From Clostridia bacterium (GTDB lineage Bacteria; Bacillota; Clostridia; Oscillospirales; Acutalibacteraceae), in the NCBI GenBank assembly GCA_029226955.1, contig JAQXZA010000004.1, positions 1-50,999 on the forward strand: DNA of 50,999 nucleotides, given 5' to 3'. Positions 5,854 through 50,999 of the stretch are shown here, in pieces. The first letter of the stretch is position 1. Each line of letters starts with the position of its first letter. The position numbers and the translations under genes were made by a program. The notes beneath the pieces were generated by a model that saw nothing but the letters and a program-made list of their open reading frames with translations, ran no database searches and had not been told where the DNA came from.

Positions 5854-8412
5854 ATGACAACAATAAAAATTATAAGTAATCCGTACCAAAAGAAAATTGG
5901 CTATCAAATCTGGCAGGAATCAAGTAGTCAATGGAAAGATATAAACTATGAAAATAACAGTAATAGTAAATTATTAAGTTCAAAAATGATCAGTAGCTTT
6001 TTTCCGTTCAAGGTAAAGACAATTATTGATACGATTATAGAAGAGTATCATAAGCCCATAAAAATTGTATTTGAAGGAACGGAAGATGAATATAAAGAAC
6101 TTCAGGATATATGCAAAGAAGAATCATATCAAGAAATTACTCTGACAAAGTCAAACAGGCAGTTAGCAAATGCCCGTGATATTCTTCCCGACATCAATGA
6201 ACTGTTTGATGAAAAATTACGCCCGCTTATAATGAAAAGTGTAAATGACTATGAAAAAGTCAGAACGGAAATCGACAAATATGCTGATGCTTCAAACGAT
6301 ATAATACCAATTTGTGTATTAGGTAATTACAGCACGGGTAAATCTACCTTTATCAATGCTTTAATCGGCAGTGAAATTTTACCAAGCGGTGATGAACCTG
6401 TTACAGCAAAAATATATAAAATAAAGCAGTCTGCGTTTGAAGACAGAGCTTATATTTTTTTCAGATACAATGAAGAACCTATCAAATTGAAATTCAAAGG
6501 TGGCGAAATTCCTTTTGAATTCAGCAAAGGAACGAGCGAAAATCCGCTTACATCTAAATTGCTTGCCGAATTGAGTTTTATTAAAGACGGAACAATTACT
6601 TTTTTAGTGAATAAAGCTTTGGAAATTATTAACAACTTTGATTTTACCGAGGACGGCGACAAGGTGTCCGATTTGATAGAAATAGAAGTGCCATTCGTAT
6701 CAGGACTTTGGGGAGAATCAAAGAACAAGTTTGTGATTTTTGATACACCGGGTTCTAATTCAGCGTCGAATAATAAACACCTGTTGGTTTTGAAAGAAGC
6801 TATGTCAGGATTTTCAAACGGACTGCCGATTTTTGTTTCCGAGTTCGACAAATTAGACAGTACTGATAACGAAGATTTATACAGAGAAATCGAAAATATA
6901 AAGGAATTAGATAATCGTTTTACAATGATTGTAGTGAATAAAGCAGATGCGGCAGAGTTGGACAGAGGTGGCTTTTCAAAAGAAAAGGAACTTAGAATAC
7001 TCGGAGAAACTGTTCCGAGAAATTTGTACTCAGGGGGATTGTTCTTTGTATCGGCAGTAATCGGTTTGGGTTCAAAAAACAATGGTGATTTTATAGACGA
7101 CCACTATGCAGAACTTTATGAAGAAAAAAAGACTAAATTTGAAGATCCGACTTCTCGTTTCTATAAGCGTCTGTATATTTACAATATTATGCCGGAACAG
7201 TTAAAGAGCAGATTTACTGATATGGCAAGTAAAAATCCTAATCTGCTTTTTACAAATAGTGGTCTTTTCAGTGTGGAAAAAGAAATTCAAACATTTGCCG
7301 GAAAATATTCATCATATAACAAATGTCAACAGGCTCAGTTATTCCTGAGCAAAGTGATTGACACAACATTTCAGGAAATTGAAAATGCGATAGCTGAAAG
7401 GGAACAATCTAAAAAGAACCGTGACGAGCATTTAAAGCGTGATGAGAAAGAACTGATTGATAAGTTGGAAAATACAAGTGCTGAATCACAAACAATATAC
7501 TGTGAAGAATACGCAGATATTATGAATAATCTCGACGATAAAGCCGATGCGGTATTTACCACAGAGCAACTTCAATCCCAGGAGAGTGCTATTGAAAAAG
7601 CTAAACAATCAGATAATTCATACGAGGAACGAAAATCTGATGTGAACAATTCCGTTTCAAAATTATGGGGTGGTTTGATGGAAGACATAAAGAATGTGTT
7701 CACATCATTTAGTTTCGACTCAATAAAAGCAGTAGGGGATAATTTTTCTGCCAGTGCAGGAGAACTGGTTAAAAATCGTGAAGAGTTAAGCAATATTGAA
7801 AAGAAGATTGACAAAGAAACAGCTGAAAAACTTTTGAATGATGTTACGGAAGAATTTAATCATAAATTTATTGAGGTTAAAACAATGCTTGATGAAAACT
7901 CTAAAAATTACTGGAGCGATAAAGCAGAGCAGTTCAAAAGGCATTTGGTAGAAATTGTCACAGGTGCATCGGTACTGAATAATGAAAAAAGAATGGAAAT
8001 TGAGAATATTATTCTTACATATGGCGATATAGATTTTGAAAACAATGCAGATACAATTTTTCTCAGGAAAGATTTCAGAAAAGGTATAAGAATTGGCGAC
8101 TGGTCAATATATGAAACTGACAAAGTTGATATTGATAAGTTGACAAGAAGATATAATGATGAAATGAAAAATAAAATTGCTGATGCTCGTGTAAAAATTC
8201 AGGATAGTCACACTGACAGTTTTGCAAAGTGGAAGGAAAATCTTGTAGGGACGATTACAACTAAAATAGTTGATTACAGTCCGTTTCTTCATAGTCAGGC
8301 ACAGATTATAAAAGAGGAAACAGAAAAAATTCTTGAGCTTGAAGCAAAGAAAAAACAATTGTCAGATTATACACAGGAAATCAAATCTATGATGGACTGG
8401 AAAGAACTGTAA
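5854..8412 (+). CDS. Dynamin-like large GTPase
   Basis: 852 residues. The G domain shows G1 GNYSTGKS (157-164), G3 FDTPGSNS (DTPG at 297-300) and G4 VVNKADA (NKAD at 362-365), the pattern of bacterial dynamin-like GTPases. A long helical, Glu/Lys-rich C-terminal half (about 480-850) resembles a dynamin stalk. An N-terminal extension of about 150 residues precedes the P-loop. No transmembrane segment is evident. Dynamin-like proteins remodel membranes and several act in phage defence. Start ATG follows AAGGAG. Its stop codon is embedded in the ribosome site of the next gene, so the two are translationally linked. Function here is inferred from context only. Confidence 0.85.
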   Translation: MTTIKIISNPYQKKIGYQIWQESSSQWKDINYENNSNSKLLSSKMISSFFPFKVKTIIDTIIEEYHKPIKIVFEGTEDEYKELQDICKEESYQEITLTKSNRQLANARDILPDINELFDEKLRPLIMKSVNDYEKVRTEIDKYADASNDIIPICVLGNYSTGKSTFINALIGSEILPSGDEPVTAKIYKIKQSAFEDRAYIFFRYNEEPIKLKFKGGEIPFEFSKGTSENPLTSKLLAELSFIKDGTITFLVNKALEIINNFDFTEDGDKVSDLIEIEVPFVSGLWGESKNKFVIFDTPGSNSASNNKHLLVLKEAMSGFSNGLPIFVSEFDKLDSTDNEDLYREIENIKELDNRFTMIVVNKADAAELDRGGFSKEKELRILGETVPRNLYSGGLFFVSAVIGLGSKNNGDFIDDHYAELYEEKKTKFEDPTSRFYKRLYIYNIMPEQLKSRFTDMASKNPNLLFTNSGLFSVEKEIQTFAGKYSSYNKCQQAQLFLSKVIDTTFQEIENAIAEREQSKKNRDEHLKRDEKELIDKLENTSAESQTIYCEEYADIMNNLDDKADAVFTTEQLQSQESAIEKAKQSDNSYEERKSDVNNSVSKLWGGLMEDIKNVFTSFSFDSIKAVGDNFSASAGELVKNREELSNIEKKIDKETAEKLLNDVTEEFNHKFIEVKTMLDENSKNYWSDKAEQFKRHLVEIVTGASVLNNEKRMEIENIILTYGDIDFENNADTIFLRKDFRKGIRIGDWSIYETDKVDIDKLTRRYNDEMKNKIADARVKIQDSHTDSFAKWKENLVGTITTKIVDYSPFLHSQAQIIKEETEKILELEAKKKQLSDYTQEIKSMMDWKEL

Positions 8413-33807: not shown

Positions 33808-34443
33808 ATACGAGCCTCCTTTTACTAAGTATTATACTCCGTTTCTGTAATAATATCAATGAAAAATGGAATATATTCCGTTTTCGTTAATTTTACCCAT
33901 TAATTTTTATGCTGATATTTCCGTAATTATCTATAATGAGTTTCAGGTTTTGTATGTATTTATTATGATTGCTATGTGTTGTGTGTTTACAGCCATTTTA
34001 TCCTCCTGTTAAAGTTATTATCTATAAATGAGCAAATCGAAAAAATGCACAAAAAATAAAGACAACGACCGAAAAATGAGTTATAATGGAGTCACTACCC
34101 AACCAAAAGAACTCAAGGAGTCGTTGTCTTATGAATAATAGCATACACCATTCAGAAACAATTTTCAATAATTTAACAAAAATAAATCTTGCCGATAAAT
34201 TTTCAAGGATTGCAATAACTCATATAGTTATATTTTCGTCCAATATCAGTAAGACATTTTTTAAGGGTGTATTCTTGCTGTTTGGTTTTCATCATCAGAA
34301 AGGTCAAGGTCAATAAAAAGCATTTTATATTCTTCTTCTAATATAGCAGTAACGAAACAGCAATCCCCGAAAAGAAAAATATTACGCAATTTCTCGCATT
34401 ATAATTCCAAACCCTAATATTTTCTCCTACAATTACTTAAATT
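33808..34443. other. Gene-poor region with probable insertion-sequence scrap
   Basis: About 640 AT-rich bases upstream of two divergent minus- and plus-facing stretches. It contains an 11-bp inverted repeat (AAGACAACGAC at 34059-34069 and GTCGTTGTCTT at 34120-34130) followed by a 61-codon frame from ATG 34131 behind AAGGAG. On the minus strand an AGGAGG-ATG pair near 33997 opens only 17 codons. These look like leftovers of inserted elements; nothing else was recognised. Confidence 0.45.
34131..34316 (+). pseudogene. Possible N-terminal fragment of a transposase
   Basis: 61 residues starting MNNSIHHSETIFNNLTKIN, with a good AAGGAG ribosome site whose surroundings form one arm of an 11-bp inverted repeat. 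The frame then ends in unrelated-looking sequence (FGFHHQKGQGQ). The short length, the terminal-repeat-like arms and the isolated position suggest the start of a truncated transposase, but I cannot name the family. Confidence 0.35.
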
Positions 34444-42498: not shown

Positions 42499-42768
42499 TT
42501 ACTTATCTTTTTTGTCGGAAGATAACATTGATATATTGTCGATAATGTTTTCATAAATTATAAGGTTTAGTTTTGCGTTTTCTATGTCTTGTGTTGTTTC
42601 GCAAAGAATAATCTTTTTGGCAAAGGCTGATAAGTCAATCACAATGCTTTTGATACATTGAGGACAGGTTTCTTTGTTGTTGATTTCAAACCACATATAT
42701 TTTGCTAAAATGCGATGTGCTTTTTCGTACAGAACCTCAGCCTGAGCAGTAATTAAATAATTCGGCAT
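42499..42768 (-). CDS. Small protein of unknown function
   Basis: 89 residues, mostly helical, with a single CPQC motif (about 35-38) and no signal peptide or membrane segment. AAAGGAAG precedes the ATG on the minus strand, which supports it as a real gene. No family was recognised. It faces away from the small-RNA array that begins 25 bases from its start, and shares that intergenic space. Confidence 0.55.
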   Translation of the reverse strand: MPNYLITAQAEVLYEKAHRILAKYMWFEINNKETCPQCIKSIVIDLSAFAKKIILCETTQDIENAKLNLIIYENIIDNISMLSSDKKDK

Positions 42769-42792: not shown

Positions 42793-42821
42793 TTGACAAT
42801 ATTGCGACTGTGTTGTATATT
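42793..42821 (+). promoter_or_regulatory. Promoter of small-RNA unit A
   Basis: TTGACA (42793-42798) and TATATT (42816-42821) with a 17-bp spacer. Predicted start about 42828, exactly at the base of the RNA stem. The spacer is nearly the same as in units C and D (AATATT and TGTGTTG are shared). Confidence 0.75.
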
Positions 42822-42827
42822 TGTATC

Positions 42828-42898
42828 AAAGTCAGGGTTTTTTGTTAATCCGAAGTATTGTTCTTCCTATCTTTCAAAAAGTCCTGACTTTACTTTTT
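42828..42898 (+). ncRNA. Small hairpin RNA, unit A
   Basis: AAAGTCAGGGTTTTTTG (42828-42844) pairs with CAAAAAGTCCTGACTTT (42875-42891), 17 bp with two G-U wobbles, followed by a T-tail. The 30-nt loop has an apical helix GAAG/CTTC (42852-42855 with 42863-42866) around a 7-nt loop, TATTGTT. No coding potential. The predicted transcript of about 70 nt is almost entirely this hairpin. Function unknown. Confidence 0.7.
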
Positions 42899-42907
42899 AC
42901 AATATTC

Positions 42908-42936
42908 TTGACGAATTTGAATAAAACTGATATGCT
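42908..42936 (+). promoter_or_regulatory. Promoter of small-RNA unit B
   Basis: TTGACG (42908-42913) and TATGCT (42931-42936) with a 17-bp spacer. The predicted start, about 42943, is one base before the stem of the downstream hairpin. Confidence 0.6.
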
Positions 42937-42942
42937 TATTGC

Positions 42943-43012
42943 TGTACCGTTCAGAACTGAACGAGCTAACGGTTTTCCGTGAACTCTATGCGTTTGAACG
43001 GTACTCTTTTTT
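42943..43012 (+). ncRNA. Small hairpin RNA, unit B
   Basis: GTACCGTTCA (42944-42953) pairs perfectly with TGAACGGTAC (42995-43004), followed by TCTTTTTT. The 41-nt loop contains ACGG/CCGT around TTTT (42969-42980). Stem sequence is unrelated to units A, C and D, but the arrangement of promoter, stem, apical helix and T-tail is the same. It is the most divergent unit. Confidence 0.6.
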
Positions 43013-43022
43013 GAAAATTTTA

Positions 43023-43051
43023 TTGACAATATTGCAAATGTGTTGTATATT
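43023..43051 (+). promoter_or_regulatory. Promoter of small-RNA unit C
   Basis: TTGACA (43023-43028) and TATATT (43046-43051) with a 17-bp spacer; only the three bases after the shared ATATTGC differ strongly from unit A. Predicted start about 43058. Confidence 0.75.
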
Positions 43052-43057
43052 TGTCTT

Positions 43058-43125
43058 AAAGTCAATGCTGTTCAGGCATTTGAGCAATCGTAGCTCCGAC
43101 ACCCTGAACAGTTATTGACTTTTTT
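43058..43125 (+). ncRNA. Small hairpin RNA, unit C
   Basis: AAAGTCAAT (43058-43066) and CTGTTCAGG (43068-43076) pair with ATTGACTTT (43114-43122) and CCTGAACAG (43103-43111), 18 bp around a small internal bulge, followed by a T-run. The 26-nt loop holds an apical helix GAGC/GCTC (43082-43085 with 43093-43096) with a 7-nt loop, AATCGTA. Sequence differs from A and D but the fold is the same. Confidence 0.7.
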
Positions 43126-43126
43126 A

Positions 43127-43155
43127 TTGACAATATTACATTTGTGTTGTATATT
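43127..43155 (+). promoter_or_regulatory. Promoter of small-RNA unit D
   Basis: TTGACA (43127-43132) and TATATT (43150-43155) with a 17-bp spacer. The -35 box follows directly on the terminator T-run of unit C, so units C and D are packed without spacer. Predicted start about 43162. Confidence 0.75.
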
Positions 43156-43161
43156 TAATAT

Positions 43162-43230
43162 CAAAGTCAAGGCTTTTTGTTAATTCGGACAATAGGAGTC
43201 CCCATCTTTCAAAAAGCCTTGACTTTTTCT
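43162..43230 (+). ncRNA. Small hairpin RNA, unit D
   Basis: AAAGTCAAGGCTTTTTG (43163-43179) pairs perfectly with CAAAAAGCCTTGACTTT (43210-43226), followed by TT and CTG. The 30-nt loop has an apical helix GGAC/GTCC (43187-43190 with 43198-43201) around a 7-nt loop, AATAGGA, at the same distances from the stem (7 and 8 nt) as in unit A. The hairpin probably also ends transcription of the TnpV-like gene from the other strand. Confidence 0.7.
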
Positions 43231-43924: not shown

Positions 43925-43953
43925 TTGATATTATTTGAAAACATTAGTATAAT
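43925..43953 (+). promoter_or_regulatory. Promoter of the cas operon
   Basis: TTGATA (43925-43930) and TATAAT (43948-43953) with a 17-bp spacer, start about 43960, giving a leader of some 30 nt before cas6. The rest of the 300-base gap to the TnpV-like gene is AT-rich, with a small GTCC/GGAC hairpin around a T-run near 43870, and no gene. No CRISPR repeats were found in it. Confidence 0.7.
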
Positions 43954-43990
43954 ATTTAATAATAAATTGATTATGAAAGCGGGTGATACA

Positions 43991-44719
43991 ATGAAAATTG
44001 TAATGAATTTCACATTGCAAAAATCTGAATTGGTAAAGGATTATTCTCCGGCATTTGTCAGCTTTATAAAAAATGCGTTGTCGGAATATGATGAAAGTTT
44101 ATTCAACGGCATTTATAAGTCAGCACCTGACAAAGAAAAAGATTTCTGTTTTGCGGTAAAACTTGACAAGCCTAAGTTTGAATCCGACAAAATCAGACTT
44201 GACAGTGAAAATGTACAAATGACAATAAGTATGCTAAGTGCTGTTGAGGGAATTGATTTTTACAATGCCTTTTTAAAGCAGAAAAACAAGAGTTATCCTT
44301 TTCCTTGCGGCAACTCAATTACTCTTAATCAGGTGAGAATGGAAAACCACAAGCCTGTACATTCGCAAAAAGTCCTTATCAAGATGTGTTCTCCTTTGCT
44401 TGTAAGAAAACACGAGGCTGATGTTGATACATATCTTGCCTATAATGATGAGGATTTCCAGAGATGTTTTGCGTTGTCTGTAAACAAAATGCTGAATAAC
44501 TTAGTACCTGATGTGAATGATACAAATATTGAAATTGTTCCTGTCAAACCGTTCAAAACAGTAGTGAACACCTTTGGAAACAAGATAACAGGCAATATCG
44601 GTATTTATCAGCTTAATGCAGATACAAAAGTTATTGACCTGTTAAATCATCTTGGAATAGGCAGCCGCAGAAGTCAGGGTTTTGGAATGTTTGAAATTGT
44701 TGCGGAGGTGAAACAATAA
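43991..44719 (+). CDS. cas6: CRISPR repeat endoribonuclease Cas6
   Basis: 242 residues with the C-terminal Gly-rich loop of Cas6, GIGSRRSQGFGMFEIV, and a typical N-terminal ferredoxin-like start (KIVMNFTL). Cas6 cuts CRISPR transcripts within repeats to make crRNAs. I start it at ATG 43991 behind GCGGGTGAT; the longer frame to 43925 would begin inside the promoter. It is the first gene of the operon, directly followed by cas8b. Confidence 0.92.
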   Translation: MKIVMNFTLQKSELVKDYSPAFVSFIKNALSEYDESLFNGIYKSAPDKEKDFCFAVKLDKPKFESDKIRLDSENVQMTISMLSAVEGIDFYNAFLKQKNKSYPFPCGNSITLNQVRMENHKPVHSQKVLIKMCSPLLVRKHEADVDTYLAYNDEDFQRCFALSVNKMLNNLVPDVNDTNIEIVPVKPFKTVVNTFGNKITGNIGIYQLNADTKVIDLLNHLGIGSRRSQGFGMFEIVAEVKQ

Positions 44720-46448
44720 ATGGAAAATGCCATAAAGGTTGAATCGGGCAGTTCTTTCTTTTTAAGTGCGGGTATTTGCGGGGTTATGACTTTTCTCGAA
44801 AAAAATAAAGCCGTGCAAGGCATAGATTATGAAGTTGAAGACCAGTGCTTGTATATCAGCATTGATTATATCAAAAATAACAATATCCCCGAAATGTATG
44901 TTTCAACAATGGCTGACGCTTTGGGTGAAAATACAAAGTTTTACAGGATTGTAAATGACAGATATATTGACAATGCCTATAAAAAAGGTGTTCAGAATTT
45001 AGATAAAGATGAACAGAAAACACTTAGTGATAAATATTCCGAATTTATCGGGAAATTCAGTCAAAGCCGTTATCTTTCAGCCTATAAATTGCTTGAACAG
45101 AAAGACGGAGTTCAGACTGTTACAGAGGCAATGATTACTGACTTGAAAAAGTGTGATGACGCTGATTTGAAATATCAGAAATACAAAAACATTGTCAGTC
45201 TGTTGAATCAGCCTGAGGTTAAAAAAACGCTGATATATACAGAACTCATTTACACTAATTTCAAGCTGTTTTTTGCTGAAAATTCCCAGTCTAAAAAAAT
45301 AAGCTGTTTATGCAAATCCGAACAGAATTATGAAAAAACATACGACGACAATTTCTTTTCACCGCTTTTGGAAGAACTGAAAATTGAGGATAAGAAAAAA
45401 ACTGCCTGTTGTATTGAGTGCAGACGGAATGTATCTCCTAAATTTAAAAAAGCGTTTACATTTTTGTCTGATACTGCTGATGATGTAAACCGCAAAAAAA
45501 GCTACTATTGGTTCTGTAAGTCTGACGCTTTCGTTTGCCCTGTGTGTGCGTTTATATATTCATTTATACCGCTTGGATTTGCATTTATGGGCAGTGATGC
45601 TGTATTTATAAACAACAACAGCAGTATAAAAGACCTTCAAAGAGTTATGAATACCTGTAAGGCAAAGACAGAAGATGAAAACGGTTCGGTAAGACGCCGT
45701 GTTTTGAGAACACTGACATCAGAAAAAATCGACGCTTTGAATAATGTAATGAGTAATATTCAGGTAATAATGAACTCGTCGGATTATTCTCATTTTAAAT
45801 TTGAAGTTATCGACAAAGATATGGTAATGAAACTTCAAAAGGGCAAAAAATATTTATCATATTTTGAAAACAAGAAGATTTGTTTTGAAAAACAAGATAA
45901 AAAACCCGTTTCAACAAAAGGCAAAAACAAGGTCTTAAAGGAAGATAAAAAGTCAGTATCAGTTTATGACCTTGTGCTTGATTACATATATGAAAAACGG
46001 GATTTATACTATCTTCTTGATAAATTGCTGAGAACTGAAATTGACAAGAACGGAAATATAAATTATTTAAAGGGATTGCTGCGTCTGGCAATAATATTTA
46101 ACGGAGGTGCTGAAATGGATAATTTGAACGAAAAAGTAAATTTAGCTTTTCTTGCAGGAAACAATCTGCGAAAAGCAATTCTTGGCAATGACGCTGATAA
46201 AAGCGACAGTGAGGACGACAACAGACTGAGAGGTTTTGTGTATCGTCTTGTTAATTTGTCGTCAGTTGGTGACCGAGAACAGTTTATGGACACGGTTGTG
46301 AGGATTTACTCAGGATTCAGTCTGACAATGCCGTCAATTTTCAAGGACTGTTATATCTCTGACGAAATGTTCAAGGCTATTGCTCACGGTTTTATTTTAG
46401 GTCTTAAATATGTTCCATATAAAAAAGACAACAAGGAGGACGTAAACA

Positions 46449-46456
<8 letters not shown>
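44720..46456 (+). CDS. cas8b: Type I-B Cascade large subunit, Cas8b/Cst1 (CXXC-CXXC) type
   Basis: 578 residues with two CXXC motifs: CCIECRRN near residue 230 and CPVCAFIYSFIPLGF near 272, the hallmark of Cst1-type large subunits that recognise PAM and recruit Cas3. A charged, Lys-rich central segment and a helical C-terminus follow. GGAGGTGA sits 9 bases before the ATG, which immediately follows the cas6 stop. It overlaps cas7 by 8 bases. Confidence 0.9.
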
Positions 46457-48039
<1,583 letters not shown>

Positions 48040-48057
48040 ATTTTAAGGGGTAATATT

Positions 48058-50295
48058 ATGAAAAAACCTGATGAGTTTATAGCTAAAAGTAACGGTGAAA
48101 CCATAAGACAACATACAGATAATCTCATAAAGGCATTTGATGATTTCAAATGCCTTTATGGTTATATGTTTGATGAAAAATTTCAGAAAGCTATACTGTA
48201 TGCGTGTGAATATCACGATTATGGAAAAGCGTCACTGTTATTTCAGAAAAATATAAATAATAAAAACTGTCTGGACGAAACACCAGACAGTGAAAAAATA
48301 TTAAAGATATATAAGGACAACGGATTTGAAAAAAACATTCCGCACGGATATTTAAGTCCGGCTTTTATGTCTTTTAGTGATTTAAAGAAAGATATAGGTG
48401 AACTGCTGGCAATGTGCGTTTATAATGCTGTATATTATCATCATAATAGAGATACAGGCATTAACGCTGTTGAACTGAAAAACATTATTGAATCCGATTT
48501 TAAGCCGAGATTTAATATAAGCAATTCTTCTTATCAGCGGAAAATTTTCGGCGGATATTTGCCTGATGAATGTTGGATTACTTATGCAATAATTGTAGGT
48601 ATGCTTAATAAATTTGATTATTATGCCTCAGATACCCACGAAAAACTCCCTGTTGAAATTGACGGAAATTATAACGGTAAATATCTTGGAGATTTTGTTT
48701 TGCAAAGCCTGAATAACAAGAAATATAAGTTAAGACCTATTCAGGAATATATGAAAAATAATCAGGACAAAAACCTGATTGTAACGGCATCTACCGGAAT
48801 AGGCAAGACTGAGGCGGCGTTACTTTGGGCGGGTAAGCAAAAATTGTTCTATACTCTTCCGCTTAAAATTTCAATCAACGCAATGTATCAAAGAATGAAA
48901 TGTGATTATGGGTACAAAGAGGATAATATAACGCTTTTACATTCGGATTTTATTTCTCAGCTTTCCGAAAGTGAATATGACGATAAGCAGATTGTTTTAA
49001 AATATGATGCGACAAAAAGATTGTCCTATCCATATACGGTTTGTACGGTTGACCAGCTTTTCAGTTTTGTGTATAAATATCGTGGCTGTGAAATTTTGTT
49101 GGCAACATTGAAATATTCAAAAATTGTAATTGACGAGATACAGTCCTACGAACCAACGCTGATTGCAAAATTGATTTACGGTTTAAAACTGATAACAATG
49201 GTTGGCGGTCAGTTTGCAATAATTACGGCAACAATGCCTGATGTGCTTTTGTCCTTTATAAAGCAAGAAAAAATACCATTTACTGCCCCTGAAAAACCGT
49301 TCCTGCTTGATAAAATCCGTCATAAAATCCACTATGAACAGGCTGAGGATTTTGACTATGATAAGATTGCAGACTATGGAAGAAATAAAAAAGTTTTAGT
49401 GATTTGCAATACAGTAAAAAAAGCCTGTGAAGTATGGGAAAATCTGAAAACAGAGTATGAAGACCTGAATGTTTCACTTCTTCATTCTAAGTTTATGCGA
49501 AAAGACCGCCGCACTCTTGAAAATGCTATAATGGAATTTGCAGATAATAAGGATTCAGTGGGAATATGGGTGACAACTCAGCTTGTTGAGGCGAGCCTTG
49601 ATATTGACTTTGATATACTGTTCACTGAAATGTGTACAGCCGACAGCCTTTTGCAGAGAATGGGAAGATGTTACAGAAAAAGAGATTACAGCGGTGAACA
49701 GCCGAATGTAATAATCGTTGACGACAAAAATGGTTACGGTACAGTATATAAATACAAAGAAATATATGACCGTTCTGTTGAATTTTTACAGGAATACAAT
49801 AACCGCTGTTTCAGCGAAAAAGAAAAAATTGATTATGTCAATAAGGTTTATAATGCAAAAGAACTGGAACAATACAGCCGTGACAACAAAAAAGGTTATT
49901 ATCTTGATGTTCGGAATACGCTGAATATGTGCAAAGATTTGATAGCTTTTGACTTTACAAAAGACGAGGCAAAGAAAAAGTTCAGAAACATAACGTCGTA
50001 CAAAATCATTCCGAAATGTATATATAACAAACATATTGATGAATTTGATGAGGCTAAGGAAATTTTAACAAAGCCTAAAAAGCATAGTTTTTCAGAACGA
50101 CAGAAAGCAAAAGAATTTATCGAGGATTACTCAATAAATCTTGGCAATTTTGATGTCAGAACAAAAGAAAGATGTAATTCGTTATTTGATGGACTGGATT
50201 ATTATACATTCGATTACAAGTATGACTTTGACGAAGATACAAAGTCGGGCATAGGTCTTGAATATGACAAGGACGAAGAGGAATATTTCATCTGA
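48058..50295 (+). CDS. cas3: CRISPR nuclease-helicase Cas3
   Basis: 745 residues. An N-terminal HD nuclease domain has His 19 (QHTDNL), the His-Asp pair in YHDYGKAS (53-54) and a YYHHNRD motif. A superfamily 2 helicase follows: Walker A TASTGIGKTEA (about 243-253), DEIQ box (359-362), ITATMPD, and motif VI QRMGRCYRKRD. Cas3 degrades DNA bound by Cascade. Start ATG follows AAGGGG. The next gene is an IS607 transposase on the same strand, with no cas1, cas2, cas4 or CRISPR array between them. Confidence 0.93.
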   Translation: MKKPDEFIAKSNGETIRQHTDNLIKAFDDFKCLYGYMFDEKFQKAILYACEYHDYGKASLLFQKNINNKNCLDETPDSEKILKIYKDNGFEKNIPHGYLSPAFMSFSDLKKDIGELLAMCVYNAVYYHHNRDTGINAVELKNIIESDFKPRFNISNSSYQRKIFGGYLPDECWITYAIIVGMLNKFDYYASDTHEKLPVEIDGNYNGKYLGDFVLQSLNNKKYKLRPIQEYMKNNQDKNLIVTASTGIGKTEAALLWAGKQKLFYTLPLKISINAMYQRMKCDYGYKEDNITLLHSDFISQLSESEYDDKQIVLKYDATKRLSYPYTVCTVDQLFSFVYKYRGCEILLATLKYSKIVIDEIQSYEPTLIAKLIYGLKLITMVGGQFAIITATMPDVLLSFIKQEKIPFTAPEKPFLLDKIRHKIHYEQAEDFDYDKIADYGRNKKVLVICNTVKKACEVWENLKTEYEDLNVSLLHSKFMRKDRRTLENAIMEFADNKDSVGIWVTTQLVEASLDIDFDILFTEMCTADSLLQRMGRCYRKRDYSGEQPNVIIVDDKNGYGTVYKYKEIYDRSVEFLQEYNNRCFSEKEKIDYVNKVYNAKELEQYSRDNKKGYYLDVRNTLNMCKDLIAFDFTKDEAKKKFRNITSYKIIPKCIYNKHIDEFDEAKEILTKPKKHSFSERQKAKEFIEDYSINLGNFDVRTKERCNSLFDGLDYYTFDYKYDFDEDTKSGIGLEYDKDEEEYFI

Positions 50296-50397: not shown

Positions 50398-50999
50398 ATG
50401 AAGGCGAATGAAGTCTTGAATCTTTTGAGAATTACACGACCTACTTTAACCAAATATGTCAAAGAAGGAATTATTAAGGTTGATAAACTTCCCAACGGCA
50501 GATATGAATATGACAGTAACAGTGTATATTCATTTCTTAATAAAGATGTAAAAAGAAAAACATACATTTATGCCAGAGTATCTACTTCAAAACAAAAAGC
50601 TGACCTTGATAATCAGATTAAATTATTAAAGCAATTTTGCTTTACGAATGGATATGTGATTTCAGGTATATATTCAGATATTGCAAGTGGTATCAGATTT
50701 GAAAAACGCAAGAATTACTTTAAAATGCTTGATGATATTATTGACAATAAAGTTGAAAAAGTAGTAATAACATATAAGGACAGATTATCAAGAGTAGGTT
50801 TTGATTTGTTTTATCACTTATTTAAAAAATATAATTGTGAGATAATAGTAATGAGTGAAGTAGGCTCAGAAAAGCTTGACAGTGAGGAAATATTTGAAGA
50901 AATGGTAAGCTTGCTTCACTGCTATTCAATGAAATTATACAGCAAAAGAAAAGTAGCAAAAATAAAAGAGGTGCTATCGGACAATGATAATAACCCGAG
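50398..50999 (+). CDS. tnpA: IS607-family serine transposase TnpA (runs off the window)
   Basis: 200 residues visible, open to the last base. An N-terminal MerR-like helix-turn-helix (1-50, LRITRPTLTKYVKEG) is followed by a serine recombinase catalytic domain: YARVSTSKQKADLDNQ with the nucleophile Ser 62, and VVITYKDRLSRVGFDLF. The DNA-binding domain at the N-terminus is the IS607 hallmark, the reverse of resolvases. GGTGGTGA precedes the ATG. A family length of about 200-215 residues means it is almost complete. Confidence 0.92.
   Translation, partial: MKANEVLNLLRITRPTLTKYVKEGIIKVDKLPNGRYEYDSNSVYSFLNKDVKRKTYIYARVSTSKQKADLDNQIKLLKQFCFTNGYVISGIYSDIASGIRFEKRKNYFKMLDDIIDNKVEKVVITYKDRLSRVGFDLFYHLFKKYNCEIIVMSEVGSEKLDSEEIFEEMVSLLHCYSMKLYSKRKVAKIKEVLSDNDNNP
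50984..50999 (+). CDS. tnpB: Probable start of IS607 tnpB (runs off the window)
   Basis: ATG at 50984 begins MIITR inside the end of tnpA in another frame. IS607 elements carry tnpB overlapping or following tnpA, and TnpB proteins often begin this way. Only five codons are visible, so the call rests on position. Confidence 0.4.

Follow-up and report, generated by a model that had tools for sequence, protein, structure and literature searches.

A stretch of 50,999 bases at the start of contig JAQXZA010000004.1 of a Clostridia bacterium genome (assembly GCA_029226955.1; the whole stretch is referred to as the window) carries four short head-to-tail units, each made up of a promoter, a hairpin and a T-run, and this locus raises the question of what RNAs the units encode and where such units come from. 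The answer reached here is that they belong to a family of small hairpin RNA genes, other copies of which are nested on the antisense strand within the 3' ends of genes encoding MuF_C or LPD3 domains, and that the RNAs may act as antidotes to those domains. Copies within such genes are called nested below, copies outside them are called orphans, and type I designates the RNA type of units A, C and D. The features of the array are as follows.

42793-43228, forward strand: four-unit array, head-to-tail promoter, hairpin and T-run; A, C and D strong, B weaker
42793-42821, forward strand: unit A promoter, TTGACA-17-TATATT
42828-42891, forward strand: hairpin RNA A, type I; closest compared nested RNA L049, 82% identity
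42908-42936, forward strand: unit B promoter, TTGACG-17-TATGCT; weak
42944-43004, forward strand: hairpin RNA B, not type I; without a nested match among the RNAs compared
43023-43051, forward strand: unit C promoter, TTGACA-17-TATATT
43058-43122, forward strand: hairpin RNA C, type I; closest compared nested RNA L069, 83% identity
43127-43155, forward strand: unit D promoter, TTGACA-17-TATATT
43163-43226, forward strand: hairpin RNA D, type I; closest compared nested RNA the third copy at L039, 85% identity

The first-pass annotation of the window had described four promoters with spacers of exactly 17 nucleotides (nt), transcripts which each form one hairpin from the start to the T-run, and an apical 4-bp stem with a 7-nt loop in A, C and D, and all of these held. 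The promoters of A, C and D matched the sigma-70 consensus at 11 of 12 positions and that of B at 9 of 12. Each unit gave a single closed hairpin of 61-65 nt from the expected start followed by a T-rich tail, with folding z scores of -5.2 (A), -5.0 (B), -6.7 (C) and -7.3 (D), and each hairpin beat 200 of 200 dinucleotide shuffles. Units A, C and D were alike in sequence and B was different. The loops, reported earlier as differing, did vary in sequence but were not patternless, as RAUNNNA fitted five of six aligned copies (relatives included) with A as the misfit. A common unit definition (at least 9/12 promoter matches, a closed 50-84-nt hairpin below -18 kcal/mol and a T-rich tail) applied to both strands of the window returned A to D, an opposite-strand palindromic echo of D and a further site at 34130 on the reverse strand.

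At several loci outside the window, a unit was found inside a long reading frame on the opposite strand. Read in antisense, the type I units, intact or broken, produced the C-terminal tail of a single domain, MuF_C (PF18819). Iyer et al. (PMC5512222) place MuF-C among the PBECR domains, putative RNases carried by polyvalent proteins for which a transfer together with DNA is predicted. MuF_C genes were gathered with a protein hidden Markov model alone from 2 of 64 genomes of the genus, 21 of 300 in a family sample and 3 of 398 in a phylum sample. This resulted in 27 distinct places, of which 26 were examinable; L055 was left out because its contig ends at the domain, and 15 MuF_C loci (L079-L093) stand outside the count. 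An antisense unit was present in 25 of the 26 genes and a sense-strand unit in none (0/26). When MuF_C copies were resampled with synonymous codons and each copy was given the full search, a unit appeared in 54 of 3900. This full-search null is the one relied on, and it covers MuF_C only, not LPD3 or the phages; a null at fixed coordinates flattered the result because the coordinates had been chosen for a good hairpin.

Protein tails and hairpins differed widely between MuF_C subfamilies, and the 17-nt spacer, a hairpin just past the -10 box and a T-rich tail recurred in 22 of 23. Codon use was compared in eight type I domains, where the same residue was encoded by the same codon at a rate of 0.80-0.84 over the RNA gene versus 0.37-0.54 over the remaining domain; the loci compared were found via a DNA pattern in the hairpin, which biases the hairpin figure and leaves the promoter figure unbiased. 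The tails shared the pattern S-I-x(n)-V-[NK], which mirrors the -10 and -35 boxes in antisense, and the antisense frame of RNA B in the window ended in ..SISVLFKFVK, consistent with this pattern. Overall, the identity of the units as RNA genes and their nesting are well supported by these sequence comparisons. A structure model of MuF_C (predicted local distance difference test score of 79) showed a weak resemblance to toxins of the RelE/BrnT type; 12 of 13 rows of structural matches were BECR-type toxins at low Z, and Foldseek gave no PDB match at E ≤ 0.001. MuF_C is a predicted BECR-fold ribonuclease, the RNase activity being a prediction of PMC5512222. Two loci are mentioned separately: the C-terminus of the MuF_C frame at L039:7599-7952 carried three in-frame tandem units, each with its own antisense promoter, and at L131 (G311 contig 13) a type I unit lay antisense to a long frame with an ArdC-like start by eye, the MuF_C match of that genome being on contig 23.

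The nesting was not confined to MuF_C. A rescan of the same 26 loci showed 11 extra units, all antisense to MuF_C genes, and five of these were tested; three followed an LPD3 domain (one below the Pfam cut-off), one followed a weak DUF6392 match and one followed nothing recognised. Among 16 LPD3 matches in 250 genomes, 10 had an antisense unit located 23-74 nt past the domain and none had a sense unit; the six matches without a unit were L096, L099, L101, L104, L108 and L109. For the control domains, a unit was found in 0 of 4 MPTase-PolyVal genes and, close to the domain end, in 0 of 11 PBECR4 genes, the latter having three stray sites at other positions. PBECR4 is a predicted RNase and is without a unit, therefore the unit does not mark every such RNase family. 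A PBECR4 match in the source genome of the window (G000:C104:30403-30810) lies in a frame with stop codons.

Distant MuF_C relatives in three Escherichia coli phages and one Pasteurella phage also showed an antisense hairpin in the same place, with an apical GGGCAAUUGRAGCCC and weaker promoters. An Opitutaceae plasmid had the hairpin, T-run and -35 box and lacked a good -10 box. Eighteen enterobacterial prophage contigs produced seven distinct antisense hairpins, some with stems exchanged throughout; the strand assignment is less certain for these because in 9 of 18 the sense strand also passed loose criteria. Phage Mu F had no unit. The tail of a phage polyvalent gene, annotated as LPD38 domain-containing, matched in 431 of 5426 complete E. 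coli RefSeq genomes, with at least 80% of the query covered in 9.

Further copies of the RNA were found with a covariance model (R1) built from six copies, the search of relatives which the first-pass annotation had proposed. BLAST and R1 together showed five tandem copies on contig C25 of the source genome and two on C103 flanking a helicase-like gene. Scanning one genome per species with a DNA pattern produced 14 loci, including those of nine metagenome-assembled genomes named Lapin and of Ruminococcus bicirculans 80/3. The L034 locus packed eight units, falling into at least four types, within about 1 kb and had a ninth unit 1.4 kb off; two of its units (6540-6624 and 6244-6331, reverse strand) were longer branched hairpins of 85-88 nt without a nested match among the RNAs compared. 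R1 was positive in 7 of the 300 family-sample genomes, six of which were among the 21 with MuF_C and the seventh was the source genome.

Orphans comprised the units of the window, those of C25 and C103 and those of six other loci, all outside such effector genes. Between 18 orphans and 10 nested copies, likeness was 0.48-0.76 from promoter to terminator and 0.25-0.32 beyond. The source genome, rated 100% complete, had no MuF_C at E ≤ 0.1 and no LPD3, and the six other orphan genomes, which come without a completeness rating, had no MuF_C; the seven nested-unit genomes had one to four MuF_C each. For 28 of the 33 known orphan units compared with 28 hand-picked nested RNAs, 25 matched one particular nested RNA at 68-92% identity, with A, C and D each matching a different one, and B and two L034 units had no match among the nested RNAs compared. 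The three-unit arrays of L032, L040 and L035 shared a common chromosomal place and differed in unit order and type, which is what a repertoire with turnover would look like. The helicase-like neighbours of L032, L040 and L045 were 96-97% identical; helicase-, AddB- and flavin-reductase-like neighbours were named by eye.

The earlier proposal of a hairpin RNA family with a common fold and compensatory changes was right. In a set of 22 orphan type I RNAs, the paired fraction of cells was 91% and 64 double-change cells were counted against a shuffle mean of 20, uncorrected for kinship. Extra pair types in these 22 RNAs were not above the shuffles, and a gap in the alignment was placed by hand in four 66-nt rows. 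Within one subtype (n = 14) the difference was 0.016 in the internal loop, 0.14-0.33 in the stems and 0.28 in the apical loop. Since the stems covary and the internal loop is nearly fixed, the RNA is probably recognised by its shape and internal loop and not kept complementary to an mRNA, a pattern that would favour an RNA which binds and blocks the domain. The account given earlier is partly supported; an origin of the orphans from genes nested in coding sequences was not visible from the window.

The best explanation of a nested RNA gene beside an effector domain, to which we give slightly better than an even chance, is an RNA antidote, with the arrays serving as immunity against incoming elements. 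We infer the antidote role of the RNA as follows. In the source setting, each RNA would be transcribed in antisense from a sigma-70 promoter of its own within the 3' end of a MuF_C or LPD3 coding sequence, the domain being part of a polyvalent protein which conjugative elements and phages are predicted to send into recipient cells. The folded hairpin RNA of 60-70 nt would bind and block the domain encoded next to it, similar in effect to a type III antitoxin. The carrier would be protected by its nested copy, and chromosomal arrays would provide multivalent RNA immunity, so that a cell survives the entry of elements with such domains. The earlier suggestion of "antisense or protein-sequestering" RNAs stands in that the source copies run antisense to a domain predicted to be a ribonuclease; between its two options, the conservation favours protein binding over base pairing.

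The strongest alternative, still an unlikely one, is antisense control as in type I toxin-antitoxin systems, in which the nested RNA would pair with the domain mRNA and lower carrier expression and the orphans would act in trans on incoming mRNAs. The nested RNA is, by position, wholly complementary to the mRNA, the orphans retain the identity to nested RNAs given above (68-92%, 25/28), and an antitoxin RNA overlapping the 3' end of a toxin mRNA has a known precedent in yonT/SR6. However, both sides of the stems change and the unpaired internal loop is nearly fixed, and nearly all of the RNA is folded. In addition, the RNA is distant from the start codon in long genes (frames up to 3710 amino acids), therefore the translation start is out of reach, and pairing with mRNA would not stop effectors which arrive as protein.

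Also improbable is a reading of the RNA as a partner of the domain (cofactor, guide, bait or autoregulatory ligand), perhaps co-delivered as a ribonucleoprotein, with the orphans as decoys or host-side regulators. The fixed pairing with domains and the near-invariant internal loop demand binding and not inhibition, and Iyer et al. (PMC5512222) suggest RNA binding for an inactive MuF-C, but arrays in genomes without a detected MuF_C are hard to reconcile with a cofactor. A small mobile element of promoter and hairpin, inserting into the linkers of large genes and functionally unrelated to the domains, is unlikely, and its chance is very small. Its copies would be dispersed and its arrays tandem as observed, including the three in-frame tandem copies of L039, but the units are always antisense and lie right after MuF_C (25/26) or LPD3 (10/16) and not after PBECR4 or MPTase, and hairpins diverge past recognition between subfamilies with their place retained. 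Finally, the scarcely credible view that the promoter boxes and hairpin are no more than a reflection of a conserved C-terminal peptide, as the tail pattern could suggest, and that arrays are toxin-gene debris was rejected, as it is contradicted by codon resampling (protein kept and unit lost, with 54/3900 retaining one), by the synonymous constraint over the RNA gene and by array units which retain promoter to terminator only.

With regard to known systems, the proposed RNA antidote resembles type III toxin-antitoxin systems (ToxIN, CptIN, TenpIN) in that a structured small RNA would neutralise an endoribonuclease by binding. Type III systems are described in PMC5086642 as bicistronic operons with one promoter, a terminator between the genes and a tandem-repeat antitoxin, located upstream of the toxin, that is processed into pseudoknots. 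Here, in contrast, a separate antisense promoter lies within the domain coding sequence, each RNA is one plain hairpin, the domain is predicted to be BECR-like and there are orphan arrays. The present RNAs were predicted as plain hairpins with covarying stems by a folding program that does not predict pseudoknots. The likeness to type I systems such as yonT/SR6 is an antisense RNA gene located in the 3' portion of the toxin gene, a trait of the nested copies and not of the orphans. The toxins of type I systems are usually small and hydrophobic proteins (PMC6563280). The partner here is a globular domain, MuF_C or LPD3, as a rule within a long protein, and the RNA forms a closed hairpin whose internal loop is invariant.

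Acquired interbacterial defence clusters of Bacteroidales are alike in that recipients retain immunity genes without the cognate toxin, and differ in that immunity proteins act there against type VI effectors where individually promoted RNAs are found here. IS10 RNA-OUT is a self-contained hairpin RNA of about 70 nt which blocks transposase translation through pairing; it is similar to the present RNAs in form and would be unlike the proposed antidote in its action. The TnpB omega-RNA is a guide whose gene overlaps the 3' end of the gene of its protein partner on the sense strand; the nested units may be compared with it for the 3' overlap and not for the strand or the guide function.

The PBECR domains and polyvalent proteins of Iyer et al. 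(2017) include the host domains of the nested RNAs, and the accessible text of that paper (PMC5512222) mentions no RNA gene, with zero occurrences each of the words antisense, sRNA and promoter. A 2012 survey (PMC3482391) stated that RNA regulators were not known from any polymorphic toxin system. A literature search, in which subscription papers were mostly not covered, found no report of a nested layout of antisense RNA and effector domain. The layout fits neither the type III nor the type I definition; should neutralisation through binding be demonstrated, it could be classed as a new type of RNA antitoxin. A wider claim is given an even chance: gut Clostridia would possess RNA immunity arrays of tandem, individually promoted antidotes copied from the antisense strand of effector genes, each matched to one subtype of a domain delivered by conjugative elements and phages, with turnover between species at one fixed locus. 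Nesting would then be a widespread means by which mobile elements, ranging from E. coli phages to Ruminococcus elements, encode a toxin and its antidote in shared base pairs. If true, this would explain how carriers survive their own polyvalent effector domains, add a toxin-antidote layout with partners on opposite strands of the same base pairs and an RNA-only orphan immunity in recipients, and give a direct handle on MuF_C and LPD3 function and on which cells accept which conjugative elements.

Database searches with the window gave no Rfam 15 match at the gathering score, and a loose Rfam search of the array and the C25 array showed sub-threshold, implausible families only. BLAST of the window region returned no plasmid record and, among phages, a single 53-nt match outside the array. 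Viral contigs scanned with the type I and type II DNA patterns gave no match, and with the MuF_C alignment A6 gave 85 pattern stretches, none of which was confirmed. R1 matches at E 0.02-0.1 (G006, G018, G027, G052, G061 and G060 contig 35) were not accepted as members, opposite-strand R1 matches were palindrome echoes and the G027 BLAST match resembles an ordinary terminator. CsrA sites, anticodon mimicry and 6S-like decoys were weighed by eye only and not adopted.

The array is flanked by a LytTR/GHKL two-component system and a small frame on one side and by TnpV and then type I-B-like cas genes on the other. The TnpV/cas neighbourhood, noted earlier for the array, is probably not a family trait: other orphans adjoin helicase-like or peptidase genes, and nested copies sit within genes of conjugative elements. 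No cas gene was recognised by eye beside other orphan units, flanks which were not searched for Cas families. A frame adjoining the array (42499-42768, reverse strand, 89 amino acids) had a weak Epsilon_antitox match of 18.8 bits against a cut-off of 25. The stretches 43925-50295 and 50399-50999 hold the type I-B-like cas genes (Cas6, Cas_CXXC_CXXC, DevR/Cas7, Cas5 and Cas3) and, past them, where adaptation genes might be expected, a frame resembling by eye an IS607-type serine recombinase, at which the contig ends.
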